Positions 26,804 through 42,841 of a stretch of DNA of 64,000 nucleotides are shown here, piece after piece. The translations under genes and the position numbers were made by a program. The notes beneath the pieces are model-generated. The model made no database searches and had not been told where the DNA came from. It saw nothing but the letters and a program-made list of their open reading frames with translations. The stretch lies in NCBI RefSeq assembly GCF_038069655.2, contig NZ_CP150951.2:248001-312000 (forward strand), given 5' to 3'. The DNA comes from Yoonia sp. BS5-3. Lineage in GTDB: Bacteria; Pseudomonadota; Alphaproteobacteria; Rhodobacterales; Rhodobacteraceae. How positions within the stretch are numbered: the first letter of the stretch is position 1; each line of letters begins with the position of its first letter.

Positions 26804-28123
26804 ATGGCTCGTATAAGTATATTTGGAATTGGGTATGTCGGCGTCGTTGCGGCGGGCTGCCTCGCGAAAGATGGTCACACCGTTATCGCCGTTGACGTCG
26901 ATCCCGGTAAAATTGATGCAATCAACTCTGGATTGTCACCTATTGTCGAAAACGGCCTTGATGATCTGATCAAAGAAGTCGTCTCGGCAGGCCGGCTCAG
27001 CGCGACCGATGATGTCGCATATGCGGTCGAAAACACCGATGCGTCATTCATTTGCGTCGGCACACCCAGCGCCCCTGATGGCTCGGTCGGTTTGAAATTT
27101 GTAGAAATCGTTTGTCAGAATATCGGCGAGGCGCTCGCCAATAAAGAGAGCTTCCACTCGGTCATCATCCGCTCAACGATTGTACCGGGTAGCTGCGAAG
27201 GCACCTGCATTCCGACCCTCGAAAAAGCCTCTGGTAAGACAGCGGGCACCGAGTTCGGCATCGGCTACTATCCTGAATTCTTGCGGGAAAGCACCGCTAT
27301 CGAAGACTATTACGACCCCGGTCTGATCGTCTTCGGCGCGATGGATGACGGTACACGCGCGATCCTGACCGAGCTGAACGAGAACCTGAACTGCAAGATC
27401 CACATGGTCGATCTGCGCACCGCCGAGATGGTGAAATACACCTCGAACACATGGCGTGCGGTCAAAGTGACCTTCGCCAATGAGATCGGGAATATCGCCA
27501 AATCTTGCGGCCTTGATGGGCAAGAGGTGATGGAAATCCTCTGCTCGGACGACAAGGTCAACATCTCTCCCTATTTCATGCGACCCGGATTTGCTTTTGG
27601 CGGCTCTTGCCTGCCCAAAGACGTCCGCGCTTTGCGCCATCTGGCCGCCGAGAAAGATACACCGGCCCCACTTTTGAACGCCGTTTTGGACGCCAATGAG
27701 GCCCAGATTGTCAAAGCACAAAGCATGATCGTTGCGGCCAAAGCGAAGAATGTCAGCATGATCGGCGTCAGCTTCAAGCCTGGTACAGATGACATGCGTG
27801 AAAGCCCGCTGGCTGAACTGGCCGCTCGGCTGATCAAGGACGGGATCAACGTGGAAATCTACGACCCCTTCGTTCACGAAGCCTATGCGAACGACAATTC
27901 CACTGCCGGGCGGGGCAATGATGTGATCCCCGATCTGAAACAGCGGCTGAACCCCGACCTGTCAGCGGTGATCGATGGGTCAGACATGATTGTGGTCGGC
28001 AATATCTACAAAGACACGCTGCCCCAACTTGATGCTGCCATTGCCGCCAAACCGATGGTTGATTTGACACGCATCAGCCGTGCCCGCGCATCGGGCGGTG
28101 GTTACGACGGGATCTGCTGGTAA
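26804..28123 (+). CDS. algD: GDP-mannose 6-dehydrogenase
   Basis: 439 residues. It makes GDP-mannuronic acid, the committed precursor for alginate-type polymers. The Rossmann start ISIFGIGYVGVVAAGCLAKDGH, the PIVENGLDDLI and PEFLRESTAIEDY segments, the catalytic cysteine in FAFGGSCLPKDVRAL and the C-terminal GICW ending all match AlgD rather than the UDP-glucose enzyme. The last four residues are the same as in the Pseudomonas protein as I remember it. First gene of the operon, with a GAGGGG site; alg8 follows after 6 bases. Confidence 0.93.
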   Translation: MARISIFGIGYVGVVAAGCLAKDGHTVIAVDVDPGKIDAINSGLSPIVENGLDDLIKEVVSAGRLSATDDVAYAVENTDASFICVGTPSAPDGSVGLKFVEIVCQNIGEALANKESFHSVIIRSTIVPGSCEGTCIPTLEKASGKTAGTEFGIGYYPEFLRESTAIEDYYDPGLIVFGAMDDGTRAILTELNENLNCKIHMVDLRTAEMVKYTSNTWRAVKVTFANEIGNIAKSCGLDGQEVMEILCSDDKVNISPYFMRPGFAFGGSCLPKDVRALRHLAAEKDTPAPLLNAVLDANEAQIVKAQSMIVAAKAKNVSMIGVSFKPGTDDMRESPLAELAARLIKDGINVEIYDPFVHEAYANDNSTAGRGNDVIPDLKQRLNPDLSAVIDGSDMIVVGNIYKDTLPQLDAAIAAKPMVDLTRISRARASGGGYDGICW

Positions 28124-28129
28124 TCCACC

Positions 28130-29608
28130 ATGATCAACGCCCTCAGCCATATTACCTATCTTTCGGTCGCCGTCATGCTTGCCGCGCTTGTCCCCGCTGG
28201 CTTGCTGGGCGAGGTCGAAGGCACGATAATTGTGCTGGGGGTGCTTGGTGCCTGGCGGTATTCCTGGGCCGTCATCAATTTCACACGCGCCGCGATCTTT
28301 TTGCGGCTCGTGTATCCGCGCCGCAAAGCCAGGGCTATGGCCCGCTATGCCGAACGCGGCGTCGGTGCACATGCGTTCTTTTTGACAACATCCTACATGA
28401 TCGAAAGCAGCGTCACGATTCCGGTCTATCGCAGCATCTTTTTGGCGGCGTCAAAGTCTGAAAACGGGGCAACAATCGTATCATCTGTCGTGGATGGCGC
28501 TGATGAACGTCTGATCCAGGACATTTACGCGACAATGCCAGTGGACATGTCGTCGGTGAAGCTGATCATTGACCGGATCCCCGGCACTGGCAAACGCGAT
28601 GCGCTGGCCAAATCCCTGCACTTGATCGATCGCGAATGCCCTTCGCACAATGACATCGTCATCTTTGTAGACGGTGACAGCTGCGTGCCCGAAGATATCG
28701 TCGCACAAGCCGCCCCAATGTTCACCAACCCCAAAGTTGGCGCGCTGACAACCGACGAAGCTGTTGAAATCCCCGATCCGGGTCTTTTCCGCGATTGGTT
28801 TGAGCTGCGCTTTGACCAGCGGCAGGTTATGATGTGCTCAATGGGGCTTAGCAACCGTGTGCTGACACTGACCGGGCGCATGTCTGTTTTCCGGGGTGAT
28901 CTGGCGACCAACCCTGATTTTATTCGCTCAGTACAACATGATTATATCGATCATTGGCGCCTGGGCCGGGTCAATTTTTTGACCGGCGATGACAAATCGA
29001 CATGGTATTGGCTGATGAAAAACGGCTTTGAAATGGCCTATTTGCCGGATGTTGCCAGCTCTTCGATGGAAACCCAACCCAAGCCAACCTTTGTCGGCAG
29101 TGCAAGCGCGCTGATGGTCCGCTGGTTCGGCAATATGCTGCGAACGAACGGGCGCGCGCTGGAATTGTCACCGCGTCAGATCGGCTGGTTTACATGGTGG
29201 TCCATCCTGGACCAACGCATGTCGATGTGGACAACCCTGGCCGGACCACTTTGCATGTTGGCCGCCGCGATCTTTTTCGACCCGATGGTTGTGCCCGCCT
29301 ATATCGCCTGGGTGATGCTGACGCGCTACGTGTTCTGCACAGCGATCTGCCTTTTTCGGGGGCACAGCTTCCCGATTGTCTATACAGGGCTGCTCTATTT
29401 CAGCCAGCTCTTTGGCGCCGCAGTCAAAAGCTATGTGCTGTTCCGGCTGGACCGCCAGAAATGGACCCGCCAAGCCAGCGCTTCGGCTGGCAAGAGCGCC
29501 CGCAAACCACTCGGCGAACGGCTGCGCACCGCCAGCTCTGCCTATCTTCACGCACTTAGCCTTGGATGGCTCGCCATGGGTACGCTGTACCTGACCGGCG
29601 TTCTTTAA
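28130..29608 (+). CDS. alg8: Alginate polymerase catalytic subunit (Alg8-like GT2 glycosyltransferase)
   Basis: 492-residue membrane glycosyltransferase. There are N-terminal membrane segments, a cytoplasmic GT2 domain with a metal-binding IVIFVDGDSCVPED, a catalytic-loop region VNFLTGDDKSTWYW, then several C-terminal membrane segments (LAGPLCMLAAAIFF, YIAWVMLTRYVFCTAICLF). This is the layout of Alg8, which polymerises mannuronate from GDP-ManA at the inner membrane together with Alg44. Gene order directly after algD supports it. Confidence 0.9.
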   Translation: MINALSHITYLSVAVMLAALVPAGLLGEVEGTIIVLGVLGAWRYSWAVINFTRAAIFLRLVYPRRKARAMARYAERGVGAHAFFLTTSYMIESSVTIPVYRSIFLAASKSENGATIVSSVVDGADERLIQDIYATMPVDMSSVKLIIDRIPGTGKRDALAKSLHLIDRECPSHNDIVIFVDGDSCVPEDIVAQAAPMFTNPKVGALTTDEAVEIPDPGLFRDWFELRFDQRQVMMCSMGLSNRVLTLTGRMSVFRGDLATNPDFIRSVQHDYIDHWRLGRVNFLTGDDKSTWYWLMKNGFEMAYLPDVASSSMETQPKPTFVGSASALMVRWFGNMLRTNGRALELSPRQIGWFTWWSILDQRMSMWTTLAGPLCMLAAAIFFDPMVVPAYIAWVMLTRYVFCTAICLFRGHSFPIVYTGLLYFSQLFGAAVKSYVLFRLDRQKWTRQASASAGKSARKPLGERLRTASSAYLHALSLGWLAMGTLYLTGVL

Positions 29609-29634
29609 ACCTTTCGCGACGAACGGATCTTCAA

Positions 29635-30723
29635 ATGAGTGATACGCAACCAACGCAGACGACCGAACCAAAAGCTGAGGTTTCAGGCAGCTTCATCTAC
29701 GAGACCGAGCATCCTCAGCTTGCCCTGCCCTTTACCGCGCGCGTCGGTGACCGCCGGGTCGAAGGCAAATCGATCTCAATCACTCATGCGGTGGTTTCTG
29801 GGTTGATGCCGCCCAATGGGAATTTCGAAAAGGTGCCGACATCGCTGCAATTCAACTTCGAAGGGTTTTCCGTGAACCTGTTCGTCGAGGTGAATGTCGA
29901 AAAGATCGGCGATGCGGAAAACCCCGATCTGCGGCTGCAGTTCTGCGATCCGGCAGGCAGTCATCTGCCAACTTTGCGCTACATCATGAACAGCCATCTG
30001 GCGGGCGATCTCGTGACGGTGGGCCGCTTTTTGGGCTATACCGGTCCAACACAAGTCAAAACCAAACCGCCCGCAGCCAAGCCCGGCACGGTCCAGCGTG
30101 TCGCGCGGACCATCCGGCAAGGCGGGATCCTTGCGCTTAGCCTGGTTCTGATCGGGCTCGCCGCAAATGTGGTGCACGAACGGATCATGTTCCAATATGA
30201 AGGACGGCCCGTTGTCATCGCGCAAAGCGGCGAAACCTTGCGGGCCACCACAGCCGGTCAGATCACATATGTGAACGAAGACGCAGGCCTTGGGGATGTC
30301 GTCTATTCGGTCGCGGCCAATTCAGGCTCTTTGCTGAGCGTCAGAATGCCATGCGACTGTACGATCTTGCCAGGTGCCGAGTTCTTTGAAGGGGCCACGG
30401 TTTTGGCAGGCGCACCGCTTGTGACATTGACCGAAGATAGCGCCGCGATTGAGGCATCGGCCCTTGTCAGTTTTGAAGGGATCGCCCGCATGATGGCGGG
30501 CGACACGCCCCAGCTTGAATTCAGCGACGGGCGTATTCTGCCCGTCTCGCTAGAGGTCACAGAAACGGCGGACACGGCCCAAGCTAACGCTGCTGTTCCG
30601 GTGCAGGTCATCCTGCCCGAAGAAAACATCGATCAAGTGGCGATCGGCGACACGGCGCGCTTGCGCTTCAAACGGAACATTCTGCCCGAAGGTCTGCAGC
30701 AAACCATCTGGGGCAGCATTTAA
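29635..30723 (+). CDS. alg44: Alg44-like polymerase co-subunit (PilZ-like domain plus periplasmic adaptor)
   Basis: 362 residues: a cytoplasmic PilZ-like region (about 20-125), one membrane segment (about 160-180, GILALSLVLIGLAANVV) and a periplasmic HlyD-like barrel region. Alg44 normally binds c-di-GMP through RxxxR and D/NxSxxG. Here the only RxxxR is RVGDR at 36-40, inside a strand, and the second motif position reads SISITHAVVSG (46-56), so c-di-GMP binding looks doubtful. The ATG at 29635 was chosen by domain start. Membership in the operon is clear. Confidence 0.8.
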   Translation: MSDTQPTQTTEPKAEVSGSFIYETEHPQLALPFTARVGDRRVEGKSISITHAVVSGLMPPNGNFEKVPTSLQFNFEGFSVNLFVEVNVEKIGDAENPDLRLQFCDPAGSHLPTLRYIMNSHLAGDLVTVGRFLGYTGPTQVKTKPPAAKPGTVQRVARTIRQGGILALSLVLIGLAANVVHERIMFQYEGRPVVIAQSGETLRATTAGQITYVNEDAGLGDVVYSVAANSGSLLSVRMPCDCTILPGAEFFEGATVLAGAPLVTLTEDSAAIEASALVSFEGIARMMAGDTPQLEFSDGRILPVSLEVTETADTAQANAAVPVQVILPEENIDQVAIGDTARLRFKRNILPEGLQQTIWGSI

Positions 30724-30811
30724 CCACGGCCCCATCCCGCATCCAGCCAGATCGGGGCAGACCATCTTCATCTACCAGTAAGTCAGGTTTCAAAACAGGA
30801 CGATTAGATCA

Positions 30812-32212
30812 ATGAGAGATATTAGACCAATTATTCTTTGCGGCGGGACTGGCTCGCGCTTGTGGCCCATGTCCCGGACCAAAAGCCCAAAGCAGTTTCA
30901 GACTGTGGCCGGTCCCGGCTCCCTGACATTTTTTCAGGCAACCGTTCAGCGGCACCGGACCAAAGGTTTTGGTAAGCCCGTTGTCGTCACGGCCCTGCAG
31001 CATGTGCGGACAGTGCAGCAGCAGCTGACCGAATTGCAGTGTGACGCCACCATCATTTGCGAACCAATGGCGCGCAACACCGGGCCCGCTGTGCTTGCAG
31101 CAGCGCGGGTGCTGGCCAAGGAAGATCCCAAATCACTGATGCTGATCCTGCCTGCTGATCATATCATTTCAGGCAATCTGAACACGCCAATCCTAGCGAT
31201 GCGGCAAGCGGCCTCTGATGGGCGGATCGTGACTTTTGGGATCACGCCAACCTATCCCGAAACGGGCTATGGCTACATCACTGACGGGGGCAAATTCACG
31301 AATTACAACGGTCTGCATAACGTAGCCGAATTCGTTGAAAAGCCCCCCCTCAGCCGCGCGACCTCGCTGGTGGCAACGGGTATGGCCTATTGGGCTTCGG
31401 GCATTTCGCTATATTCGGCACAAACGATTATGGATGAATTTGCGCGGCTCGACACGGTCTCATCCGAGGCCGTCGCGCAAGCCGTCGATCAGGGCGAATG
31501 GGCCGATAACTGCCTGACGCTCCATCCTGACAGCTTCCGCAAATCCACCAATGAACCGACCGAGCGGATCATCTTCGAAAGAGCCAAATCTGTCGCGCTC
31601 GCACCACTTGATGTGGAATGGAGCGATGTGGGCTGCTGGACCTCTATGCAGGCGATCGGCACCGCCGATGACAACGGCAATGTGCTGACAGGTGATGTGA
31701 TCTCGGTTGATACCAGGAACACGCTTGTCCGCGGTGACAAACGTCTTGTGGCCGTTGTGGGTGTGTCAGATGTGATCGTGGTTGATACGCCCGATGCGGT
31801 TCTGGTGACAGCGCGCGGTAAATGTCAGGACGTCAAGAAAGTGGTCGAAACGCTCAAAGGCGAATCCCGCCGCGAGGCCGTGCGCCACAGCGCCCAGGAT
31901 CACCAATGGGGGCAAAGCCAGCATGTGATGACATCGCAGGATCACGACATGACCATGCTCAGCATCAATCCAGGCTCTTCGATCACGGTTGATCCGCTGC
32001 CCGGGCGGCAAATCATCGCCGGGCGCGGCGGTCTGTCGGTCTTTGACGGGATCAGCAACCGAACCTTGGAACAGGGCGAACGGACGATGCTGGATATTAT
32101 CGACCGGACCAAGCTGACCAACACCTCTAGCGACAAGATCGATGTGCTGATGGTGACGCTGCATTCGTCCATATCGACACCCGAAAAGGTGGATGCAGTT
32201 CTGAATGCTTAA
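30812..32212 (+). CDS. algA: Mannose-1-phosphate guanylyltransferase (AlgA-like, isomerase half degenerate)
   Basis: 466 residues. The N-terminal guanylyltransferase domain is intact: PIILCGGTGSRLWPMSRTKSPKQF (seen as GGTGSRLWPMSR and SPKQF), ILPADHII, ETGYGYI and FVEKP. It makes GDP-mannose for AlgD. The C-terminal cupin domain aligns with the phosphomannose isomerase half, but where that family has the metal ligands QMHHHRAEHW this protein has VDPLPGRQIIAG. Isomerase activity is therefore unlikely and mannose-6-phosphate must come from elsewhere. An 88-base gap precedes it; its end overlaps the algG-like start by 8 bases. Confidence 0.88.
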   Translation: MRDIRPIILCGGTGSRLWPMSRTKSPKQFQTVAGPGSLTFFQATVQRHRTKGFGKPVVVTALQHVRTVQQQLTELQCDATIICEPMARNTGPAVLAAARVLAKEDPKSLMLILPADHIISGNLNTPILAMRQAASDGRIVTFGITPTYPETGYGYITDGGKFTNYNGLHNVAEFVEKPPLSRATSLVATGMAYWASGISLYSAQTIMDEFARLDTVSSEAVAQAVDQGEWADNCLTLHPDSFRKSTNEPTERIIFERAKSVALAPLDVEWSDVGCWTSMQAIGTADDNGNVLTGDVISVDTRNTLVRGDKRLVAVVGVSDVIVVDTPDAVLVTARGKCQDVKKVVETLKGESRREAVRHSAQDHQWGQSQHVMTSQDHDMTMLSINPGSSITVDPLPGRQIIAGRGGLSVFDGISNRTLEQGERTMLDIIDRTKLTNTSSDKIDVLMVTLHSSISTPEKVDAVLNA

Positions 32213-33716
32213 CCGCTGCCATCATATGCTTTGGGCCGGCTGCATGGCCGTCTGCACCGCCCTGCCCCAAGGGGCAGCGGCGCAACGCGACATGCAAAGC
32301 TATGCTGCATTGCAGGCGCAGCTGACCGATCTGGACGCAGCGCTGACCGATGTGGCGGGCACCATCCTGTCGGTCAGCGATCTGCCTGAAACGGCCACAC
32401 AGGTGATCCCTGGCGAGAACGCGGCGATGCGACCTGCCATGGACGCGCAGCAGATGGCGCCCGCCTCGATCACAATGGTCGATCTGCGGGTGGCGCTGTT
32501 GCAACTGGCCTTTGCAGTTGGGGGCAATGATCAGATCCCGTTGGTACGGGCACAAAATACGCAAGCACCCCAGGTGATTGGAATCCGGGGCGGCAGCGTT
32601 GATCTGGCCACGCTGCAGGAATGGGCGGCAGAACAGCCCGGCGCTATCTTCGACGGAGATACACTGCGCCGACCCATCATCATTTTTCAGGACGGGCGGC
32701 TTGCGCTCAAAGCCGGCGATCAGCTGACCTTGTCACGCGAAGACGGGGCATTTGTCGTCAACCTAGGCAAACTGACCGCCCAAAACGCCATGATCCTTGG
32801 CACAGCCGAGGCTAGTCCCGGCGATGACAGCTTCGCCCCCTTCGTGACAACGGTCGGCACCGGCATGGCGCAGGTGTCAGATAGTTTGATCGAAAACCTG
32901 GGCTTTGGATCAACCATCGCATTCTCGGGCTTTTCTGTGGTCAATCGGGGGCTTTACGCACCCGTTGGAACCTCTTTTTTGACCGATAGCGTGCTACGCG
33001 ATGTGGGGGTTGTCGGATTCGACAGTACCGAAGACACGGTGATTGCCGGGAACCTGTTTACCGGCGGCGATGCAGGCGGGTTGGAACTGCGCGGCGTTGA
33101 AAGGGTGCAGGTTTCAGAAAATATCTTCGCAGCTAATGAAGATGGCAGCGCGCTGCTGGTCACAGACGGATCAACCGGCGGGACGATCGCGAGCAACACG
33201 ATCCTCAGCAGCGCCGGCACCGGGATTATCGTGAACAAGGGCAGCGACAATACGGTGATCACCCACAACGTGATCTGGAATGCAGCGGGCAGCGGCGTGA
33301 CTATTGCGGATTCCGATTGCGGCTATCTGGATGCGAATATCGCGATCGAAAACCGGCGCAAAGGGATCGAGCTGCGCAGTAGCCAACGATCAGCGGTCGT
33401 CGATAACAGCCTGATGGGCAATCGCAGCGCGGGACTATTCATTAGCGATCAGCCCCAAGGGACCGAAACAACCGTGCGCGGGAATGCGTTTATTGGCAAT
33501 CGGATCGGCCTGTCTTCGGCATCGGCCGATCATGTGCAGCTTTATGGCAATGATTTCACCAACCAATTCCCACGCTTTCTGGACGGCGATTTCGCGTCAG
33601 ACAGCTTGGCGATCATGGCCGATTTACGCGGGCAGCAAAGCCTGACCCTGACAGCAACCGGCATCGCCTCATTCACCGGCGCCCCCGCAACCTGCACCTA
33701 CAAACTGGAAGGCTAG
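32205..33716 (+). CDS. AlgG-like periplasmic beta-helix protein lacking the epimerase DPHD motif
   Basis: 503 residues with a signal peptide (about 1-26, ending GAAAQ). A central block (DGAFVVNLGKLTAQNAMILG, then FAPFVTTVGTG) and a right-handed parallel beta-helix of N-x-x-x-x-N-type coils (roughly 220-460) align with AlgG, the mannuronan C5-epimerase. The active-site loop that reads GIDPHDRSH in Pseudomonas is GLELRGVER here (292-300), with no DPHD anywhere. It may protect or guide the polymer rather than epimerise it. It overlaps algA and is 3 bases before algI. Confidence 0.75.
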   Translation: MLNRCHHMLWAGCMAVCTALPQGAAAQRDMQSYAALQAQLTDLDAALTDVAGTILSVSDLPETATQVIPGENAAMRPAMDAQQMAPASITMVDLRVALLQLAFAVGGNDQIPLVRAQNTQAPQVIGIRGGSVDLATLQEWAAEQPGAIFDGDTLRRPIIIFQDGRLALKAGDQLTLSREDGAFVVNLGKLTAQNAMILGTAEASPGDDSFAPFVTTVGTGMAQVSDSLIENLGFGSTIAFSGFSVVNRGLYAPVGTSFLTDSVLRDVGVVGFDSTEDTVIAGNLFTGGDAGGLELRGVERVQVSENIFAANEDGSALLVTDGSTGGTIASNTILSSAGTGIIVNKGSDNTVITHNVIWNAAGSGVTIADSDCGYLDANIAIENRRKGIELRSSQRSAVVDNSLMGNRSAGLFISDQPQGTETTVRGNAFIGNRIGLSSASADHVQLYGNDFTNQFPRFLDGDFASDSLAIMADLRGQQSLTLTATGIASFTGAPATCTYKLEG

Positions 33717-33719
33717 AAC

Positions 33720-35165
33720 ATGGTTTTCTCATCTGAATCGTTTCTCTTCCTGTTTTTGCCAGTGTTTTTGCTGGTCTATTACGCGACACCAGAACGGATG
33801 AAATCCTACGCGATCCTGGCAGGGTCTTATGTGTTCTACGCCTGGTGGCGGGTGGATTTTCTGGGGCTTTTGTTCCTGACCACGGCCTTTGCCTATGTGA
33901 TCGGACAAAAAATATCGCAGCACCGGGGCACCGCGAAAGGGCGGAGCTATCTGACCATCGGGGTCATTGGGTGCCTTGGGGTGCTTGGGGTGTTCAAATA
34001 CCTTAATTTCTTTATCGACAGCTTTGCGGTGCTGCTGGGTACAGATGCAGCGGGGCTTGGAATTCACTGGCGGCTGATCCTGCCGATTGGGATTTCCTTC
34101 TATGTGTTCCAGGCGCTCAGCTACCTGATCGATGTGTATCGGGGCGACGCCAAGGCAGATGCACCCTTCATCGATTTTGCGGCCTTTATCGCGCTGTTTC
34201 CGCAGCTGATCGCCGGGCCCATCCTGCGCTACAAAGACCTTGAGGATCAGTTCCGCAAGCGTACCCATTCGGTTGAAATGTTCTGCGACGGTTTCGCGCG
34301 GTTCATCATCGGGCTGGCCAAAAAGGTCATTCTGGCAGATGCGGTCGCGCCGCTGGCCGATTTGGCATTCGCCACCGAAAATCCAGGCATGGCTTTGGCT
34401 TGGGCAGGGGCGATTGCCTATATGCTGCAGCTCTATTTCGATTTCTCGGGATATAGCGATATGGCCATCGGTCTGGGCAAGATGATGGGGTTCAATTTTC
34501 TGGAAAACTTCCGGTTCCCCTATATCAGCAAATCAATCACCGAGTTCTGGCGGCGCTGGCACATTTCGCTATCGAATTGGCTGCGCGATTACCTCTACAT
34601 TTCGCTTGGCGGCAACCGCAAAGGACCCGGGCGCACCTATTTCAACCTGATGGCTGTGATGGTGCTTGGCGGGCTTTGGCACGGGGCCAACTGGACCTTC
34701 GTTCTCTGGGGATTCTGGCATGGCGGTCTGCTTGCGGCAGAACGCTATCTCGGCTGGGACCGGAACGCAGCACGCTACTGGTTTGCGCTGCCGATGACAC
34801 TGACCTTCGTGCTGATCGGCTGGGTAATGTTCCGCGCAGCCTATGTCGGCGAAGCGTTTGAGATTTACGGCGGAATGATCGGTCTAAACGGCCTGCTGGG
34901 CGACCCCGCGGTCTGGATGCAGATGACCCGCGAAAGCGTGGCGCTGATGATGCTGGCGATCCTCGTTGTCTTTGCAGAGCCGCATGCCTGGAACGCAGTC
35001 GCATCACTGCGGTCCCAAGATGGGCAAATCAACCCTGACGGGACAATGTCCGCATCCGCGACGGGTCAGGCTGTTCTGACCACGGCTGTTTTGGTGATTG
35101 GTACAATCACGATTTTGAAGCTGGCCGAGCAAAGTTTTTCACCCTTCCTGTATTTCCAGTTCTAG
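33720..35165 (+). CDS. algI: MBOAT O-acyltransferase, AlgI-type
   Basis: 481-residue polytopic membrane protein that carries acetyl groups across the inner membrane for polymer O-acetylation. It starts MVFSSESFLFLFLPVFLL as AlgI does and contains YLIDVYRGD, FPQLIAGPILRY, FYFDFSGYSDMAIG-type (LYFDFSGYSDMAIGLG), FWRRWHISLSNWLRDYLYI and the catalytic-histidine segment GGLWHGANWTFVLWG. All hallmark MBOAT residues are present. It is followed directly by the AlgJ-like gene. Confidence 0.93.
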   Translation: MVFSSESFLFLFLPVFLLVYYATPERMKSYAILAGSYVFYAWWRVDFLGLLFLTTAFAYVIGQKISQHRGTAKGRSYLTIGVIGCLGVLGVFKYLNFFIDSFAVLLGTDAAGLGIHWRLILPIGISFYVFQALSYLIDVYRGDAKADAPFIDFAAFIALFPQLIAGPILRYKDLEDQFRKRTHSVEMFCDGFARFIIGLAKKVILADAVAPLADLAFATENPGMALAWAGAIAYMLQLYFDFSGYSDMAIGLGKMMGFNFLENFRFPYISKSITEFWRRWHISLSNWLRDYLYISLGGNRKGPGRTYFNLMAVMVLGGLWHGANWTFVLWGFWHGGLLAAERYLGWDRNAARYWFALPMTLTFVLIGWVMFRAAYVGEAFEIYGGMIGLNGLLGDPAVWMQMTRESVALMMLAILVVFAEPHAWNAVASLRSQDGQINPDGTMSASATGQAVLTTAVLVIGTITILKLAEQSFSPFLYFQF

Positions 35166-35171
35166 GTGGCA

Positions 35172-36269
35172 ATGGGCATGATGATCACAACTGCAATCAG
35201 ATTAACTGCACCGCTTGCGTTCTTTGGATACGCCGCCTTCGCCAATCTCAGCCTGCTCCAGGGCGATGTCGAAGGCCCCGATGCGGGCGGTTTCCTGAAG
35301 GGCGAATTTTCCCAAGAACTCGACACGCTCTATCGGACGAACCTGCCCCACCGTGAAGTGGCCGTCGGTTGGGTCGGCATGGCACGTTATGCGCTTTTGA
35401 ATGAAGGGCGTGATGGGGTCGTACCGGGATCGGATGATTGGCTTTTCAGTTCGGAAGAATTCCGCAGCCATGATCCCGATACGATCAAACTGAATGATAC
35501 GCTGGACTACATGTCGCAAGTTCATATGGCGTTGCAGGCGATGGGCAGCGAGCTGGTCATCGTCCCCCTGCCCGCCAAAATCGACGTTGCGCGCAGCTAT
35601 GCACCAAGCGCCGATCAGATCAACGTGATGAGCGCGGCCTATGACCAATTCCTGACCGATTTGGATACGCGGGGCATCAAAGCCGTCGATACACGGCCCG
35701 CCCTGGTAGCGGCTGACCAGCCGTTCTTTCAGACCGACACCCATTGGACAGATAGCGGTGCGCTTGCGGTCGCCGGCGCTGTCGCGGCCTCTGGCTTGAT
35801 CGCGACGGGCAACACCGAATTTACTCGTACCGATCAAGCGCCCGTCTCTTTCGCAGGTGATCTGGTGGCATTCGTAACATCAGAAACCCTGGGGCCAATT
35901 GTCGGGCTGCATAGCGAAACGATCACGCCCTATGTGGCCGAAAGCGCCACCGGCGATACGGGCGGCGGCGGGATCGATCTGTTTGGCAATAGCGGACCAA
36001 AGCCGGTTGATCTGGTGGGCACCAGCTATTCAGCCAACACCAATTGGAGCTTCGCCGAAGCGCTGAAACTGAGCCTCGCACAAGACGTTTTGAACCATGC
36101 CGAAGAGGGGCAAGGACCCGTTGCTCCGATGCATGCATATCTTGAAAACCTAGACCCGGCCGACGCACCGCCCGCCGTGATCTGGGAATTTCCTGTGCGG
36201 TATCTCAGCGATCCTAAACTAATGGATGCACTGACGGATGAAGAGGAGGCCAGCGATGAAAACGCTTAA
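35172..36269 (+). CDS. algJ: AlgJ-like alginate O-acetyltransferase (SGNH-type)
   Basis: About 365 residues with an N-terminal signal anchor (about 5-28). The family signature DxH appears as FFQTDTHWTDSGA and the nucleophile serine as LVGTSYSANTN, about 95 residues later. AlgJ works with AlgI in the periplasm to acetylate the polymer. Several starts are possible: GTG 35166 and ATG 35172, 35178 and 35181; an AGGTGG sits just upstream of the later ones. A glycine-rich stretch GDTGGGGIDLFGN before the serine motif recurs in the AlgX-like protein. Confidence 0.85.
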   Translation: MGMMITTAIRLTAPLAFFGYAAFANLSLLQGDVEGPDAGGFLKGEFSQELDTLYRTNLPHREVAVGWVGMARYALLNEGRDGVVPGSDDWLFSSEEFRSHDPDTIKLNDTLDYMSQVHMALQAMGSELVIVPLPAKIDVARSYAPSADQINVMSAAYDQFLTDLDTRGIKAVDTRPALVAADQPFFQTDTHWTDSGALAVAGAVAASGLIATGNTEFTRTDQAPVSFAGDLVAFVTSETLGPIVGLHSETITPYVAESATGDTGGGGIDLFGNSGPKPVDLVGTSYSANTNWSFAEALKLSLAQDVLNHAEEGQGPVAPMHAYLENLDPADAPPAVIWEFPVRYLSDPKLMDALTDEEEASDENA

Positions 36270-37017
36270 ACTTGCCGCCGCGCTTGTCCTGATGGCCGCA
36301 CCGGCCTTTGCGCAAACAAATGATGCCTCTGTCGATCCGAACCGGATCACGGTGCAGATGATGCCAGGGCTGACCTCGTCCAATCAATTGCCAACTGAAC
36401 GGCTGATCAACGCGCGCAAGGCGCTGGCGGCGGGGCAGTCGATCTACGTGTCCGACATGCGGGCGATTGCCGATTTTGGGGATGGTTTTGCCGCCTATCG
36501 CTTTGCGGACTGGCTGGCCGAAAATTCGGACGATCCATCTTATTCGGATATCGCGCATTACTACGGGATTGCGGCCGCAACAGCACGCGGCGGGGCGATC
36601 CGGCAAATGATCCGGGCCCTTGACCAAGTGAACCCCGAAACGCTTGTCCGGGCGCGCAGTGACGTTCTGGAAAACATCCTGTTTACCTATGCCAAAGCGG
36701 GCAATGCGCTCGCGGTTGAGGCGGTGATCCGCTATGATACCGCCCAGCGACCCTTCGGCAGGCTCGGATCCGAAGTTGCAACCTTGCTTGACCATATCGA
36801 CGGGGAAAACGCAGTGCAGGTTTCCCTGCATCTGGCCGCTGGTATTTTGCAGAACCCGCAAGCCACGCAATTCGATCTGGATCAGGCACAGACCTATCTG
36901 GACATCGCCATGAGCTCGCAATCGCTTGAATCGCGGCTTGTGGCGTCCAACCTTGCCCCGCTTTTGGATGAGGCATCCATCAAACTCACCAGCGCGTCGA
37001 CGGAGACATCCCAATGA
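36256..37017 (+). CDS. Secreted alpha-helical repeat protein in the alginate-type operon
   Basis: 253 residues with a signal peptide (MKTLKLAAALVLMAAPAFAQ). The mature part is built of helical hairpins such as GFAAYRFADWLAENSDDPSYSDIAHYYGIAAA and ends with LDQAQTYLDIAMSS, resembling TPR/Sel1-type solenoids. The start at 36256 has a GAGGAGG site and overlaps the AlgJ-like gene by 14 bases; the next gene overlaps by ATGA. I do not recognise an ortholog. It may be a periplasmic scaffold that does part of the job of AlgK. Confidence 0.7.
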   Translation: MKTLKLAAALVLMAAPAFAQTNDASVDPNRITVQMMPGLTSSNQLPTERLINARKALAAGQSIYVSDMRAIADFGDGFAAYRFADWLAENSDDPSYSDIAHYYGIAAATARGGAIRQMIRALDQVNPETLVRARSDVLENILFTYAKAGNALAVEAVIRYDTAQRPFGRLGSEVATLLDHIDGENAVQVSLHLAAGILQNPQATQFDLDQAQTYLDIAMSSQSLESRLVASNLAPLLDEASIKLTSASTETSQ

Positions 37018-38411
37018 ACCAGCTCCCCCGCCAGATTTTCACCATCGCCCTTGGGATCGGATTGGCGCTTGGCGCCAGCCCGCTTGCAGCGCAGTCGCAA
37101 TATGGCTGCACCGGGCTTGAACTGCATGACACGGTACCCAGCTTGGAAGGCAAGGACGGTGTGTTCTTTCGCGTGAATCTGGATATCCGCATGCACCACC
37201 CCTTTTCGGACGAAAGTGTCGCTTTTCTGTCCGATTTCTCCGATGCGCTGGCAGAAAGCGGCACGACGCTGGTTTTCGTGCCGGTCCCAACAAAAAGCGT
37301 CACAATGCCAGACCATCTGCCCGAAGAGGCTGCGCTTTACGGCTTTGATCTTGATGTGGCGACAGCCGTGCACGACGACATCTTAAACCGGCTCGAGGCG
37401 GCAGGGGTCGCGACCGTGGATGCCCGGGCGGCAATGCGGCAAGCACCAGAAGGGGAATTGCCGTTCTTTAAAGCCGATTTCCACTGGTCCGCCGTTGGCG
37501 CGCGCGAAACGGCTCGGGCAGTGGCAGAACGCATCAAAGCGCTGCCCCTCTATGACGAGTTGCCCAAAACCACATTTGAGACAAACGAAACAGGTGTTTC
37601 GGTCGCGTTCTCAGGGATGCGGCGCGAGCTGCAGGAACATTGCCTTGAAACGCTGCCAGAAGCCGAAAGCATGACCTATGAAACGACGATCGTACAAAGC
37701 GGCGGTCAGGACGGCACTGTGGATCTGGGGCTTGGCACCGTTGATTTGGGGCTGGGCGGCGACAGCGGCGGGGGCATTGATATTTTCGGCAATACCGAAG
37801 AATCGACCGTGCCTATCGCGCTGCTGGGCACGTCCTTTTCGGCAACAGATATCAACAACTTCTCCGGTTTCATCGCCGAATTTACCGAAGTGGAATTGGT
37901 CAATTACGCCCTGACAGGGGGGAACCAATTCGGGGCGATGATCTCTTATCTGACCTCTGCCGAATTCCGCGAGACGCGGCCGCGCGTGCTGATCTGGGAA
38001 AACCCGATCTATACCAATCTGGCCCAATTCGGGGATCAACCGACCCGTGAACTTGTGGCGGCTGCGGGACAGACCTGCACCTTGCCGCTTGATCCGGTGG
38101 TCAGCGAAGACCGGCAGGTCATGAATGTTGATCTATCCGGCTATGATTTCGGGCCCGAGGACACGCTTTTCGTTGATCTGAACCAATTGGCAGGCAGCGA
38201 AGCCGTGTTCAGATTTCATTCCAGCGAAGGATACACCCGGACCAAAGTCATCGAACGCGGCGAACGCCTGAAACGAACCGGGCGGTTCTACATGCCACTT
38301 TCGGGGCTATGGGATGACGGGGCCGTTTCCGTCGATATCACCAGTTCACTACCGTTTACCAACCAACCAAGCGTGTTTGCTTGTACCACTCAACCAACGG
38401 AGAAAACATGA
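37014..38411 (+). CDS. algX: AlgX-like O-acetyltransferase with C-terminal carbohydrate-binding-type domain
   Basis: 465 residues, near the 474 of Pseudomonas AlgX. After a signal peptide (to about 26), an SGNH-like domain carries the catalytic DxH as FFKADFHWSAVGA (D155, H157) and the serine as LLGTSFSATD (S274). The last roughly 120 residues form a beta-rich region where AlgX has its polymer-binding module. A 7-residue tandem repeat (GTVDLGL twice, 234-247) precedes a glycine-rich loop GGGIDIFGN shared with the AlgJ-like protein. Its stop overlaps the AlgF-like start. Confidence 0.85.
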   Translation: MNQLPRQIFTIALGIGLALGASPLAAQSQYGCTGLELHDTVPSLEGKDGVFFRVNLDIRMHHPFSDESVAFLSDFSDALAESGTTLVFVPVPTKSVTMPDHLPEEAALYGFDLDVATAVHDDILNRLEAAGVATVDARAAMRQAPEGELPFFKADFHWSAVGARETARAVAERIKALPLYDELPKTTFETNETGVSVAFSGMRRELQEHCLETLPEAESMTYETTIVQSGGQDGTVDLGLGTVDLGLGGDSGGGIDIFGNTEESTVPIALLGTSFSATDINNFSGFIAEFTEVELVNYALTGGNQFGAMISYLTSAEFRETRPRVLIWENPIYTNLAQFGDQPTRELVAAAGQTCTLPLDPVVSEDRQVMNVDLSGYDFGPEDTLFVDLNQLAGSEAVFRFHSSEGYTRTKVIERGERLKRTGRFYMPLSGLWDDGAVSVDITSSLPFTNQPSVFACTTQPTEKT

Positions 38412-39025
38412 GACAGACATTCCTATCCACCTGTGCATTTGTATTGGTGAGCAGCGTGGCGATCGCCGATACCGGGCTGTATGAAGGTGTTGTTGATCCC
38501 AATTCCAGTTTTGTACGTGTTGTTACCCAGGACCAAACAATTGCAACCATCGGCGGCGAAAATATCCGTGATATCGACAGCGGGATCTCGGGCTATGTGA
38601 ATGTGATGCCCGGTGAAATCGACGTCGTCTTGCCAACCGCTTCGGAAGTGATCGAAGTCGGGCCAAGCAGCTTTTACACCGTCGTCTTTGACGCTGATGG
38701 TGAGGCCGAAGTTTTCACCGATGACATCACAAACAGCCCCTCGAAGGCAGATGTGTCTTTCTACAACCTGACCGATACAGCTGATATCTCTGTCTACGTG
38801 CCGCAGGCAGACGCAGTTGCGCTTGAAGCCGTTGGCGCCATGCAAGGGCAATCGGTTGCAATCAACGCACCGCTGACCTTGGATTTCGAGCTGAGGGCAG
38901 GCGATGAAACGCTTTCCAGTGTCTCTGGCGTCGATCTGGTGCGCGGCGCGGGCGTGTCCATCGTGCTGCTGGAATCCGATCAAGGCTATGCCGCCTTTGC
39001 CACGGCCAATTCCTATCTGAAATAA
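38408..39025 (+). CDS. algF: AlgF-like periplasmic acetylation protein
   Basis: 205 residues with a signal peptide (to about 20, ending VAIA). The mature protein begins DTGLYEGVVDPNSSFVRVV, like the LYGPxxPxGSAFVRV start of AlgF, and comprises two similar beta-sandwich halves, the second from ADVSFYNLTDTADISVY. AlgF is required with AlgI, AlgJ and AlgX for O-acetylation. The start by ATGA overlap was preferred over an ATG 9 codons upstream. Divergent in sequence, so the assignment rests on both the opening motif and position. Confidence 0.75.
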   Translation: MRQTFLSTCAFVLVSSVAIADTGLYEGVVDPNSSFVRVVTQDQTIATIGGENIRDIDSGISGYVNVMPGEIDVVLPTASEVIEVGPSSFYTVVFDADGEAEVFTDDITNSPSKADVSFYNLTDTADISVYVPQADAVALEAVGAMQGQSVAINAPLTLDFELRAGDETLSSVSGVDLVRGAGVSIVLLESDQGYAAFATANSYLK

Positions 39026-39047
39026 ACGCCACCGACAGGAGTTTCAC

Positions 39048-41819
39048 ATGCTTAAAAGAATATCCTTTTCGCGACCTGCACTCACGGTTTGCGCCGCTTT
39101 GTGGACTTCTGTCGCGCCCTTTGCGACCAACGCACAAGAGACGAACGCCAACGCGCTCGCACTTTCATTTGTCCCGCCCGAGATTGACCCGGTAAAGGTC
39201 TGCGTCCCACGCGAACCCGATATCGATACGGTCGCCAAATGGGAAGAGTGGGACGGACAGCGCCTGCCGAATATCTCGCCTGCGCTGATCAAACGGGATG
39301 TGAACCGCCTGCTCCAGATCGACCCCGATTATTGGGGGGCAACGGTCCAGCTGGTCATCACCCGGCTGGAAGAAGCAGACCCTGCATATGCTGGGCATAA
39401 TGCACTTCTGGCGCGGATTAACGCTTATGTCGCTGCTGGTGATTATGCGACGCTGAATGATCAACAATTGGTCGCCCAACTGGCCGAAGATGGCACGACG
39501 CATTCACCGCGCATTCAAAACGCACTCGCCGAATTCTACCGCGATGGCATCGGGGTAGAACGCGATATTGACCGCGCGAACGCACTTTTGGTCGAAGCCG
39601 GTTTTGCGGGCAATGCCGACGCGCTTTTGGCACTGACAAAGATGCAGCTCGACGGCGATGGCGTTCCCGGCTGGGATCTTGACCCCGGCCTGGCGGTGAC
39701 CATGGCCTTTGGTAGCCTTGTGGGCGAATTGGATGCGTCCATTTGCGACCGGGTGACACGTATCGCCCGCGAATATCACAACGGCGAAATCGTCGCGCCG
39801 AACACGGATCTTGCCCATGATTGGTACCGTTTTGCGGCGGATCTTGGGGATTCGAACGCGGCTTGGAAGGTGGCCGAATACCACCTGCAAGCCGAAAACT
39901 TCACAAAAGATAATGACCTGCTTTTGCATTATCTGACGCAAGCCTCTGACGACGGTCTGCCATATGCGCAGATCGCACTCGGCGGCATGTATGAGGCTGG
40001 ATCCCTGGTCGAGCAGGATCTCGACAAGACGCTGGAACTTTACCGCGTAGCGGCCACATCAGGCCTGCGCCCGGGACTGACCCGGTTGACCCTGTTCCTA
40101 GAATCCCATGCAGATCGTTTTGGGGAATTCGATATCGAAAGAGTGCGCGCACTTCAGGCGCTCGCGACACTCGATGATGTTCCTGGCTGGGTCTACACCC
40201 GGCTCGCGAAAGAAGTCTATGAAGACAAGGGCATATGGGCCGGTCAGGACGAAGCCATTGTTTATCTGGAACGTGCCGCTGAGCTGGGCGACATGGATGG
40301 GATGATTGCTCTTGCCGAAGCGCTTGTCGCGCGGCGCGGCGATCCTGCCGAATTTGAACGTGCGGTTGACCTGCTCAGCTACTCGGTTTCGACCTTGGGC
40401 GGCGTGTTGCCATCGCAAACACTGCACGGGATGTTCATGTGTCAGGCCACCGATAGCCCGCGCGTCGCTGAGGCCGAACATTGGGCCGCGACCCAGTTTG
40501 CGACAGATACCGCAAATCTCGAAATCGCTGCGCGCGAACTGACCCAGCTGGACCCTAGCGAAAATGCATTGACGGTCGCGTCGCTCCAGTCGCATGCACT
40601 TTATGGACGCCCAGGGGCTTTGGCCAACTATCTGAAATTCCTTGAAAGCTCTCCCGACACCGATCCGGCGCTCCTGGCCTTCTGGCAGGAATATGCAGAC
40701 CGGTATTCCAGCGTTCTTGAGGCGCTTGCCGAGCTGGAATTCGAATTGGCCGCAAACCCGCAACAACGCCTGGTCGCTTTTGATCTGCTGCGGCGGCAAT
40801 ATCAGCGCGCTGGCTCGGATGCGGCCCTGGCGCTGGCGCAGGCGATGCTGGACTACGAAATCAGCGATGAAGATTTCAACACAAACGAAGTGCGGGCGCT
40901 ACTGGAGCAACCTGCATCACGCGGTCAAGGCGCGGCGATGCACCTGCTGACCTCTCTTAGCGGGTCAGAGAGCGGCGGGCGCCACGTTTATCTGCAATAT
41001 GCGGATGTGATCGCGGCCAATGGTGATTTCGACGCCCTGCTGTTTGCGGTGCCATTCGTCGATGAACAGACGCAGAAAACCTACCTTTCGCGGGCGGCAG
41101 GGATCATCCGTTGCGACTACAAAAACACCATGACCATGGCGCAGATCTATCTCGATATCGGCGATCAGGATTTAGCCATGCACTGGATCGACGTGGCCGA
41201 GAACCTGTTGGGCGACAATACATGGGCGATGATCGATCTGGCCGAAGTCAAACTGGACCTGCACGGGACTGCGGCGGCCGAAAGCGCGATGGCGCTGTTT
41301 GAAACAGCATTGGCCAGGGGCGATGTGAATGCGGCACGCGGGGTCTTTGATCTGGCACTCGACACCGAAGCGGCAACCTTTGACCCCACCCGTGCGGCCG
41401 AATTGATCACTGCGGCGCTTGAGGATCCAAATAAGGAAAATCTGGCGCGGTTCCTGGGGCGCTACCGCCGGGCGGGCGAAGCCGTGCAGGCGCAGATCGG
41501 CCAACAGCTTGATATGCCGCAGGTGTTCCTTGCCTCGGCACAGACGGGCGATATCTACTCAATGCGGGTCTATGCAATGTATCTGCGCGAAACTGCGGCA
41601 AACGGCGATCAGCTGATGGAATCGACGCAATGGCTAGCGCGTGCGGCCGAAGGCGGGGACACAACGGCAATGGCCGAATATGGCTATGCGCTGGCCTTTG
41701 GCATCGGGACCGAGGCTGACTTGCCCAGCGCGCTGCAATGGCTTGAACAGGCGGCCGCAAACGGATCAATCAAAGCCGGGGCAATCACTGCTCTGCTCGA
41801 CCTGAACGGAGACACCTAA
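39048..41819 (+). CDS. Large secreted Sel1/TPR-repeat protein (possible AlgK counterpart)
   Basis: 923 residues with a signal peptide ending at FATNAQ (about 30) and no lipobox cysteine. Nearly the whole protein is Sel1-like helical repeats, for example AHDWYRFAADLGDSNAAWKVAEYHL and LPYAQIALGGMYEAGSLVEQDLDKTLELYRVAA, ending with AMAEYGYALAFGIGTEADLPSALQWLEQAAANG. AlgK, the outer-membrane scaffold lipoprotein of alginate export, is also a Sel1/TPR solenoid but about half this size and lipidated. This protein could replace it as a periplasmic scaffold. Its stop overlaps the next start by one base. Confidence 0.75.
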   Translation: MLKRISFSRPALTVCAALWTSVAPFATNAQETNANALALSFVPPEIDPVKVCVPREPDIDTVAKWEEWDGQRLPNISPALIKRDVNRLLQIDPDYWGATVQLVITRLEEADPAYAGHNALLARINAYVAAGDYATLNDQQLVAQLAEDGTTHSPRIQNALAEFYRDGIGVERDIDRANALLVEAGFAGNADALLALTKMQLDGDGVPGWDLDPGLAVTMAFGSLVGELDASICDRVTRIAREYHNGEIVAPNTDLAHDWYRFAADLGDSNAAWKVAEYHLQAENFTKDNDLLLHYLTQASDDGLPYAQIALGGMYEAGSLVEQDLDKTLELYRVAATSGLRPGLTRLTLFLESHADRFGEFDIERVRALQALATLDDVPGWVYTRLAKEVYEDKGIWAGQDEAIVYLERAAELGDMDGMIALAEALVARRGDPAEFERAVDLLSYSVSTLGGVLPSQTLHGMFMCQATDSPRVAEAEHWAATQFATDTANLEIAARELTQLDPSENALTVASLQSHALYGRPGALANYLKFLESSPDTDPALLAFWQEYADRYSSVLEALAELEFELAANPQQRLVAFDLLRRQYQRAGSDAALALAQAMLDYEISDEDFNTNEVRALLEQPASRGQGAAMHLLTSLSGSESGGRHVYLQYADVIAANGDFDALLFAVPFVDEQTQKTYLSRAAGIIRCDYKNTMTMAQIYLDIGDQDLAMHWIDVAENLLGDNTWAMIDLAEVKLDLHGTAAAESAMALFETALARGDVNAARGVFDLALDTEAATFDPTRAAELITAALEDPNKENLARFLGRYRRAGEAVQAQIGQQLDMPQVFLASAQTGDIYSMRVYAMYLRETAANGDQLMESTQWLARAAEGGDTTAMAEYGYALAFGIGTEADLPSALQWLEQAAANGSIKAGAITALLDLNGDT

Positions 41820-42841
41820 TGCGTGGATTACTGGCCATCACAAGCACCGCCCTCGCCGCAGGACTGACCACGCCTGTGCTGGCCGCAGCCGAAGATTGCA
41901 TCGCAGCGCCCACACCGGTGATCGCGCTCGGGTTCGGCAGCCGCTACACCGATGAAAGCGAAACACGCTCTGATATCGATGAAGCAGGCAATGCCGAGGT
42001 GAACGCGGCACTTGGCCCGATTGATGATTTCATCCGGGATCTGACGAACACAGCGAACGACGTGACCGAAGGCAAGGACGGACAGCTTGAGATGGCCGAA
42101 TGCGCAATCGCGCAACTGGCCGCCTGGGCCGAAGCCGATGCTCTCAGCGAGATGAACACGATCACCGCGAATTTCTCTGTCGGATCACGGATCGCGGGGT
42201 TTGCGCTGGCCTATGTGCAGCTGGCGCCGTTCAGCACCAATCTTGAAGCACGCAGCACAATCGAAGACTGGCTGGGACGCCGGGCGGCAGATCAAATGAC
42301 CTTCTGGGAAGAAGACGCGACACAAGGGGCCAAATCAGGGAACCTGCGGGCTTGGGCCACACTGGGGATCAACGTGGTTGGCGATCTGCGGGATGATCCG
42401 GTTGCACTGCGCTGGTCGGCCTGGTCGGCGACCTTCCTGCAATGCGAGGCGCTTGACGATGGCAGCCTGCCGCAGGAAATGCGGCGGGGGAAATATGCGC
42501 TGCATTACCAACTGCATGCGGTGGCACCACTGGTGCTGACAACGCTGCTTTTGGAAAAGCAGGATCTGTCGATCCGGGGCGTCTGCAACAATGCGCTGGA
42601 TCGGATCGTGGAATTTACGATCAATGACCTAGAAACAGGCGCCGCAAGCGAAGCCTATTCCGGGGTACCGCAAAGTCTGTTTGACGGCACGGATGAACTA
42701 GAAAGCTTCCAGCTGGCCTGGCTTGAGGCCTATCTAGCGCTTGAACCCAACCCAGAGCTTGATGCATTTGCCGAAGCCTACCGGCCCTTCGGGCACAGCA
42801 AAATGGGTGGGGATCAGGCACTGCTTTGGGCGGTCGATTAG
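41819..42841 (+). CDS. AlgL-like (PL5-type) protein with altered active site
   Basis: 340 residues with a signal peptide (to about 23, ending VLAAA). The all-helical body resembles alginate lyase AlgL: MAECAIAQLAAWAEADAL, the active-site helix, and MRRGKYALHYQLHAVAPLV, with an arginine (223) and tyrosine (230) spaced as in the family. Where AlgL has NNHxYW, this protein reads GNLRAW (174-179), so the asparagine is kept but the catalytic histidine is a leucine. It may be a weak or non-catalytic polymer-binding protein. Last gene of the operon. Confidence 0.7.
   Translation: MRGLLAITSTALAAGLTTPVLAAAEDCIAAPTPVIALGFGSRYTDESETRSDIDEAGNAEVNAALGPIDDFIRDLTNTANDVTEGKDGQLEMAECAIAQLAAWAEADALSEMNTITANFSVGSRIAGFALAYVQLAPFSTNLEARSTIEDWLGRRAADQMTFWEEDATQGAKSGNLRAWATLGINVVGDLRDDPVALRWSAWSATFLQCEALDDGSLPQEMRRGKYALHYQLHAVAPLVLTTLLLEKQDLSIRGVCNNALDRIVEFTINDLETGAASEAYSGVPQSLFDGTDELESFQLAWLEAYLALEPNPELDAFAEAYRPFGHSKMGGDQALLWAVD

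Follow-up and report, generated by a model that had tools for sequence, protein, structure and literature searches.

A divergent alginate-type operon family in Rhodobacterales, in a long and a short form, with altered AlgG, AlgL and Alg44

The alginate operon of Pseudomonas and Azotobacter has the gene order algD-8-44-K-E-G-X-L-I-J-F-A. In 1733 genomes, a survey identified 64 alginate operons, most of them from Pseudomonas; its accessible part also describes atypical operons that are rearranged or have lost algKE or modification loci, and notes divergent alg44 and algX (Bundalovic-Torma 2020, PMC7112194). According to the available text of a 2015 review, pure polymannuronate is not known from any natural producer. 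Here we describe an alginate-type operon of Yoonia sp. BS5-3 (Rhodobacterales), located in a stretch of 64,000 nucleotides of contig NZ_CP150951.2 (positions 248,001 to 312,000), which we call the window and number from its first letter. We read the operon, with a probability of about 0.6, as a derived alginate machine that makes a polymannuronate free of guluronate (G), acetylated in the long form of the operon, with AlgG acting as a scaffold. No description of the operon family was found among the literature matches listed, which consist of titles and abstract openings and leave most subscription journals outside their coverage. Among them, Phaeobacter and Yangia papers mention alginate only in passing in their accessible parts, and a sargassum paper matches only through a reference title.

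Twelve consecutive open reading frames (ORFs) on the + strand occupy positions 26804-42841 of the window. Profile and structure-sequence searches give the order algD-8-44-A-G-I-J-orf8-X-F-SEL1 solenoid-algL. The original prediction for this stretch had proposed twelve contiguous same-strand genes with alg homologues, arranged unlike the Pseudomonas operon and with catalytically intact polymerising and acetylating parts. Profile, structure-sequence and identity searches agree with it on the gene set, and mapping of the gene order in other genomes recovered the twelve-gene order or a nine-gene variant in 26 further loci, with some exceptions. Catalytic residues are intact in AlgD, Alg8, AlgI, AlgJ and AlgX of the long form. 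Two features had not been listed before: an Alg44 without PilZ motifs, and the nine-gene form without acetylation genes. The rest of the 3.98-Mb genome contains no second match to the AlgL family (PF05426) or to the AlgG family, and the genome has no match to the AlgE family (PF13372), which rules out a canonical alginate operon elsewhere. The features are as follows, with lengths in amino acids (aa).

25825..26577, + strand: LuxR-type response regulator, candidate regulator, directly 5' of algD (PF00196 and PF00072)
26804..28123, + strand: algD, GDP-mannose 6-dehydrogenase, 439 aa (full-length match to the solved structure 1mfz)
28130..29608, + strand: alg8, GT2 polymerase, 492 aa (PF13641)
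29566..30723, + strand: alg44-like co-polymerase, no recognisable PilZ motifs, 385 aa from the first start
30812..32212, + strand: algA-like mannose-1-phosphate guanylyltransferase, isomerase half without its motif, 466 aa (PF00483 and PF22640)
32205..33716, + strand: algG-like beta-helix protein without DPHD (aligned place near residue 294), 503 aa
33720..35165, + strand: algI, MBOAT O-acyltransferase, catalytic His present, 481 aa (PF03062)
35166..36269, + strand: algJ, SGNH acetyltransferase, Asp/His/Ser present, 367 aa (PF16822)
36238..37017, + strand: orf8, all-alpha repeat protein, N-terminus resembling a signal peptide by eye, 259 aa (no Pfam match)
37014..38411, + strand: algX, SGNH acetyltransferase with C-terminal domain, Asp155/His157/Ser274 present, 465 aa (PF16822)
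38381..39025, + strand: algF, acetylation adaptor, 214 aa (PF11182, 44 bits against a cut-off of 34.4)
39048..41819, + strand: SEL1 solenoid in the place of AlgK, no lipobox, no beta-barrel, 923 aa (PF08238)
41819..42841, + strand: algL-like PL5 protein with changed active site, 340 aa (PF05426, 59 bits against a cut-off of 22.2)

An Alg8 search at an identity of at least 58% located the operon in 24 of 390 Rhodobacterales genomes, at 27 places including the window; the next Alg8 match below the family drops to 41% identity. In the window's genus, 4 of 22 sampled genomes carry the operon. Among 385 genomes of the class, with few of the window's family sampled, no Alg8 above 45% identity was found besides that of the window's own genome. 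The first set of loci comprises twenty-six 20-kb regions around close Alg8 genes, reaching upstream of algD or alg8. Eleven regions have the long form, with the window's gene order including algI, algJ and algF. Among these, L041 has no detected algL and a short SEL1 ORF. Twelve regions have the short form of nine genes (algD, 8, 44, A, G, orf8, X, SEL1 and L, without algI, algJ and algF). Three regions (L046, L048 and L059) are long-type with no algD or algA in the cluster, and L048 is also without detected orf8 and algL. Each of the three shares a genome with a nine-gene copy (pairs L046/L057, L048/L058 and L059/L045). These two-copy genomes may make acetylated and unacetylated polymers from one precursor pool.

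The second set was obtained by scanning named genomes with an AlgL alignment, of which the best 80 of 120 relatives were used. Their record titles include Yoonia, Loktanella, Cognatishimia, Maritimibacter, Oceaniglobus, Tabrizicola, Sulfitobacter, Jannaschia, one Roseibium metagenome-assembled genome and others. The set contains 44 long and 31 short loci; five (L123, L132, L137, L143 and L173) are unclassified and stand outside the form count, being incomplete or a lone AlgL. The lone AlgL, of the family type, is found in Shimia sp. R9_2 (L123:10001-10939), with the rest of the operon absent within 21 kb. The two sets overlap: 17 of the 80 loci contain rows that are 99-100% identical to the 26 Alg8-selected loci. 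The scan used two AlgL peptides, one of which contains NLRAW, so that site counts on AlgL are partly circular. Site counts of the second set were taken from alignments with six Pseudomonas-type references, for Alg44 and AlgG only where the locus reaches the gene.

The window's AlgG scores 73 bits against the epimerase_AlgG profile, which has a cut-off of 700, and also matches four solved C5-epimerase chains. The DPHD motif is present in all six references and absent from all AlgG copies of the second set (0/43 long, 0/31 short) as well as from the 27 copies of the Alg8-selected set, which overlaps these 74. The loss of the catalytic motif in the window, as originally predicted, therefore extends across the family. 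Not a single His column is conserved at 85% or above in family AlgG. A series of Asn residues (283, 306, 331, 355, 378 and 401), spaced by 23-25 residues, is read as a beta-helix ladder. The gene itself was found in 43 of the 44 long loci and in all 31 short ones; in the remaining locus, L164, the operon genes found begin with algI. A dead but retained AlgG would fit the behaviour of P. aeruginosa, because mutants without AlgG release oligomers, whereas strains whose AlgG carries a mutation produce mannuronan (accessible part of PMC4444821). Two genomes elsewhere in the phylum (L096:9317-16554 and L097:9839-17229) carry algI/J/F/X/L together with an AlgG-like protein without DPHD and an AlgL with NNH, possibly through an independent loss of epimerase function.

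The retention of AlgG in nearly all loci, with an invariant polar set in its C-terminal part, is also what one might see if the product were ordinary mannuronate/guluronate (M/G) alginate, made by a merely diverged operon and epimerised by AlgG through another active site or by a secreted enzyme. There is a precedent in Azotobacter, where secreted epimerases make the G-blocks (accessible part of PMC4444821). RTX calcium-binding secreted proteins with a beta-helix-like N-terminal part lie beside six loci of the second set, all of them long (L139:11038-13092, L148:10982-13033, L150:11399-13927, L176:11033-13075, also L153 and L192), and are candidate lyases, epimerases or adhesins. One of them, at L176, has a DPHD string. 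However, this string lies in a Pro-rich stretch, by eye outside the beta-helix-like part, and the motif is absent from three other RTX proteins inspected. A secreted epimerase in the window's genome was considered and rejected, as a narrow search there matched only RTX repeats and the DPH motif is missing from the one PF12708 protein. With DPHD missing from the 74 AlgG copies and no His column conserved at 85% in family AlgG, we regard M/G alginate as an unlikely product and favour a chain that stays polymannuronate.

The precursor genes of the operon point to GDP-mannuronate. AlgD scores 424 bits with GDP-mannose dehydrogenase and 247 bits with the highest-scoring UDP-glucose dehydrogenase, and the GGSCLPKD motif of AlgD is kept in all 24 aligned family copies, the window included. 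The AlgA encoded in the operon scores 357 bits against GMP_PMI, under the cut-off of 373. The isomerase motif of the references, QxHHHRxEH, occurs in none of 66 family copies (second set, one gapped), so the motif loss noticed in the window is family-wide. A second, full-length bifunctional AlgA/ManC above the cut-off is encoded elsewhere in the window's genome, near nucleotide-sugar genes that were named by eye from their first residues.

Alg8 shares 41-44% identity with the six Pseudomonas-type references. Its DGD, TGDD and RW sites are invariant in 27 of 27 copies, and 190 of about 490 columns are conserved at 92% or more. Two other Rhodobacterales genomes, outside the clade of the operon family, encode a different Alg8-like synthase (38-40% identity) followed by one ORF and a distant AlgL-like protein (L060:5770-10208 and L061:5821-9922). 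Alg44 owes its name to an identity of 26-33% to the six references; in the window it was read from the first start, and the true start is perhaps downstream. Pfam finds no PilZ domain in this protein even at E<=10, and does find one in Alg44 of L093, L094, L098 and L100, which are two Pseudomonas-type and two alphaproteobacterial operons. The RxxxR motif is present in all six references. At its aligned place it is found in none of the 27 Alg8-selected copies and none of the 31 short-form copies (second set, one gapped); an invariant His-Pro occupies the position in the family. The window's genome contains 15 GGDEF matches, one of them at about 14665-15135 of the window, and a single PilZ match away from the operon, so that readers of cyclic-di-GMP (c-di-GMP) other than PilZ are likely in this organism.

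The O-acetylation set of AlgI, AlgJ, AlgF and AlgX with its catalytic residues is confined to the window and the long form. The catalytic His of AlgI is found in all 44 long loci, and the Asp/His/Ser residues of AlgJ in 43 of them, the remaining one being gapped. AlgX has a complete Asp/His/Ser triad in all 44 long loci and in none of the 31 short ones. In the short-form protein the Asp stays, the His is gone from all 31 copies (Arg in 29) and the Ser from 30. Such a dead but retained AlgX would fit P. aeruginosa, where secretion is compromised without AlgX and intact without AlgI, AlgJ or AlgF (accessible part of PMC9734138). In a tree of AlgX (79 rows, leaving out three of the 75 classified loci, whose ORFs reach at least 560 aa), the short form is one clade with support of 100/100 and groups with 19 long rows at 94/98; AlgX of the window falls with those of Loktanella and Yoonia. 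A repeated origin of the short form is thereby ruled out, and the loss of algI, algJ, algF and the AlgX triad is needed only once. In the first set, nine of the 12 short loci, but no locus among the remaining 14, have next to them a polysaccharide-lyase-type protein (PF14099, 58.7 bits in the one member scanned; L040:1372-2274, also L047, L050, L051, L053, L054, L055, L056 and L057). This neighbour of the short form may act on the unacetylated polymer.

AlgL also matches solved PL5 lyases. The corresponding sites in the window are Arg42, Asn175, Leu176, Arg177, Trp179, Arg223, Tyr230 and His233. In P. aeruginosa numbering, the catalytic residues Arg249 and Tyr256, as well as Asn201 (numbered by analogy) and Trp205, are kept in 79 of 79 loci. 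His202, the residue stabilising the anionic intermediate, is replaced by Leu, the next Ser by Arg, and Lys66 by Arg in the same 79 loci, a partly circular count, and Tyr259 by His in 76. The NLR sequence is also found in 17 loci that were matched only by the other AlgL peptide, and the Leu/Arg replacements occur in 25 of 25 AlgL copies of the Alg8-selected set. AlgL had originally been described as having lost its catalytic residues. This stands for the His, which has become Leu, and does not stand for the Asn, Arg, Tyr and Trp, which are invariant. Since the swap of His/Ser for Leu/Arg is itself invariant, the alignments suggest that selection maintains an altered protein and that AlgL is not simply decaying. 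The P. aeruginosa H202A variant of AlgL has no detectable activity in vitro, and its strain shows growth and morphology like the complemented strain (accessible part of PMC8829089). By analogy, the family AlgL may be functional without the His.

The fixed changes in AlgL (Lys to Arg, His to Leu, Ser to Arg), the PF14099-type lyase upstream of nine short loci and the three clusters without algD and algA raise the question of whether the polymer is mannuronate at all. The synthase and the periplasmic set could have been re-tooled for another uronate or a hexose, with AlgG, AlgL and PilZ diverging jointly as a result. We consider this quite unlikely. AlgD scores far higher with GDP-mannose dehydrogenase than with UDP-glucose dehydrogenase and shares its operon with a guanylyltransferase, the genomes of L046, L048 and L059 each hold a second copy with algD and algA, and Alg8 is nested among alginate synthases.

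In the place of AlgK, the operon encodes a SEL1 protein of 923 aa. Its AlphaFold2 model, built on an alignment of 44 sequences, is an all-alpha solenoid with a predicted local distance difference test (pLDDT) score of 89.9, and the best Foldseek matches include Sel1-repeat proteins. A beta-barrel hidden in this protein is ruled out by the all-alpha model. A lipobox is absent from the window's SEL1 protein and from its orf8, and a loose lipobox pattern matches five of 76 relatives. The orf8 product is modelled as all-alpha with a pLDDT of 91 and no barrel. It has no Pfam match at E 0.01 and no Foldseek match at E 0.001, the weak Foldseek matches including SEL1L; the gene was detected in all 44 long loci and in 28 of the 31 short ones. 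The AlgE family is not matched in the window's genome and is absent from 23 of the 24 operon genomes, while both Pseudomonas-type controls are positive. The expected lack of an AlgE-type porin and of a lipidated AlgK is thus found in the window, and for the porin in nearly all operon genomes. Among the other loci, L099 has an AlgE-family gene within the region fetched around its operon. No conserved exporter gene was recognised among the flanking clusters of 106 loci; the commonest cluster is found in 28 of them, and its example is by eye an ABC-type ATPase.

In a tree of Alg8 (50 rows), the operon family forms one clade with support of 100/100. The alphaproteobacterial locus L098 is sister to this clade (88/94, below the star of the tree tool), and both group with the Pseudomonas-type Alg8 and with L099, L100 and L104 (85/89, also below the star). 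DPHD is kept in AlgG of L098, L099 and L100, and PilZ in Alg44 of L098 and L100. As these relatives still have DPHD and PilZ, the absence of both from the Rhodobacterales family is most simply explained as derived. The loss of AlgE may be older than the family.

The losses in AlgG, the AlgA isomerase, Alg44 and AlgL could also be read as the degeneration of a cluster on its way to pathway loss, which the patchy presence (4 of 22 genomes in the genus, 24 of 390 in the order) and the lone AlgL at L123 would suit. Against this, the frames are open and the order is fixed in 26 further loci with few exceptions, the replacement residues of AlgL are invariant in 25 of 25 copies, and more than a third of the Alg8 columns are highly conserved. 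Decay is therefore very improbable.

The gene content, gene order, conservation and residue states established above would fit together as follows. AlgA and AlgD would supply GDP-mannuronate, while the intact bifunctional AlgA encoded at another place in the genome probably provides the step from fructose 6-phosphate to mannose 6-phosphate. Alg8 and Alg44 would polymerise GDP-mannuronate and push the chain across the inner membrane, presumably without being controlled by c-di-GMP at the PilZ site that Alg44 usually has. AlgG without its epimerase motif would be a beta-helical guide only, leaving the chain as polymannuronate. In the long form, AlgI, AlgJ, AlgF and AlgX would O-acetylate the chain in the periplasm; in the nine-gene relatives, which have no algI, algJ or algF and whose AlgX has lost its catalytic residues, the chain would stay unacetylated. 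The predicted orf8 protein and the SEL1 solenoid could form, with AlgX, a periplasmic conduit that replaces AlgK, so that the chain would pass along AlgG, AlgX, orf8 and the solenoid. The AlgL with its changed site may clear or trim stray polymer, by modified PL5 chemistry or by binding only. Exit through the outer membrane would take place via a porin other than a recognisable AlgE.

Several points weigh against this scheme. We infer the composition of the polymer wholly from the genes. The C-terminal residues Asn432, Asn449, Gln454 and Asp462 of AlgG are invariant, which makes another activity of the protein possible, and beta-helix alignments are prone to slippage. Epimerisation could be carried out extracellularly by another enzyme, the search of the window's genome for such an epimerase having been narrow, with its sole PF12708 protein lacking DPH. 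In four of 27 Alg44 copies an incidental RxxxR lies close to the aligned position of the PilZ motif but does not coincide with it. Genome G336 has two partial AlgE-family matches above the cut-off (50.6 and 37.3 bits), which lie at C17:50547-51128 and C20:305261-306226, with the operon on C12. The genome of the sister locus L098, G860, is also without an AlgE match, and the absence of AlgE is thus not specific to the family. Finally, the short form arose once, so that the link between AlgX and AlgI is one event and not a repeated correlation. The original prediction of a coherent alternative pathway to an acetylated, mannuronate-rich polymer fits the gene evidence, with the AlgG and AlgA losses family-wide; its composition and export parts remain at the level of what the genes suggest.

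More tentatively, the family may represent a large group of natural mannuronan producers with a distinct secretion architecture, in which AlgG (in all copies read) and AlgX (in one clade) are pseudo-enzyme scaffolds, Alg44 is free of PilZ, AlgL has a new, fixed site, and export proceeds through a SEL1 solenoid and a non-AlgE porin; some cells would then make both an acetylated and an unacetylated product. If the polymannuronate reading is true, the operon family predicts many natural producers of this polymer. It would offer natural tests of the scaffold roles of AlgG and AlgX apart from catalysis, of how a polymerase is switched on without PilZ and c-di-GMP, and of how alginate-type polymers leave a cell without a recognisable AlgE. 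An acetylated polymannuronate that contains no G and has a defined composition would also have practical appeal.

The operon of the window is flanked on its 5' side by the LuxR-type regulator and on its 3' side by an ABC-transporter ORF on the opposite strand. Within the 26 regions of the first set, a homologue of the regulator is found upstream in ten of the 11 long loci, in none of the 12 short ones and in none of the three long-type loci without algD and algA. Its position upstream of algD makes it a candidate regulator of the operon.

Among described systems, the alginate operon of Pseudomonas and Azotobacter has in common with the window a GDP-mannose dehydrogenase, Alg8 and Alg44, the AlgI/J/F/X set, and homologues of AlgG and AlgL. 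In the window, however, the gene order is different, AlgE is missing, the 923-aa SEL1 solenoid stands for the lipoprotein AlgK and orf8 is extra. AlgG is without DPHD, Alg44 without PilZ motifs and AlgA without its isomerase motif, and AlgL has NLR for NHS. With P. aeruginosa AlgL and other PL5 lyases (accessible part of PMC8829089), the window's protein shares the family and the equivalents of the Asn, the Trp, Arg249 and Tyr256, whereas it has Leu for His202, Arg for the neighbouring Ser and for Lys66, and in the family mostly His for Tyr259. The acetylated cellulose (wss) system has a BcsA-type synthase (accessible part of PMC7112194), whereas the synthase here is of the Alg8 type and the operon holds no BcsA-type one. 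The atypical alginate operons in the same partial source resemble the window's operon in their rearrangement and in the loss of outer-membrane and modification loci; that part of the text makes no mention of catalytic-residue loss, of alginate operons in Rhodobacterales or of two forms. Another related system is the sister locus in the Alg8 tree, L098 in genome G860, which has algD-8-44-G and SEL1 proteins and no AlgE match, as in the family, but differs from it in retaining both the DPHD motif of AlgG and the PilZ domain of Alg44.

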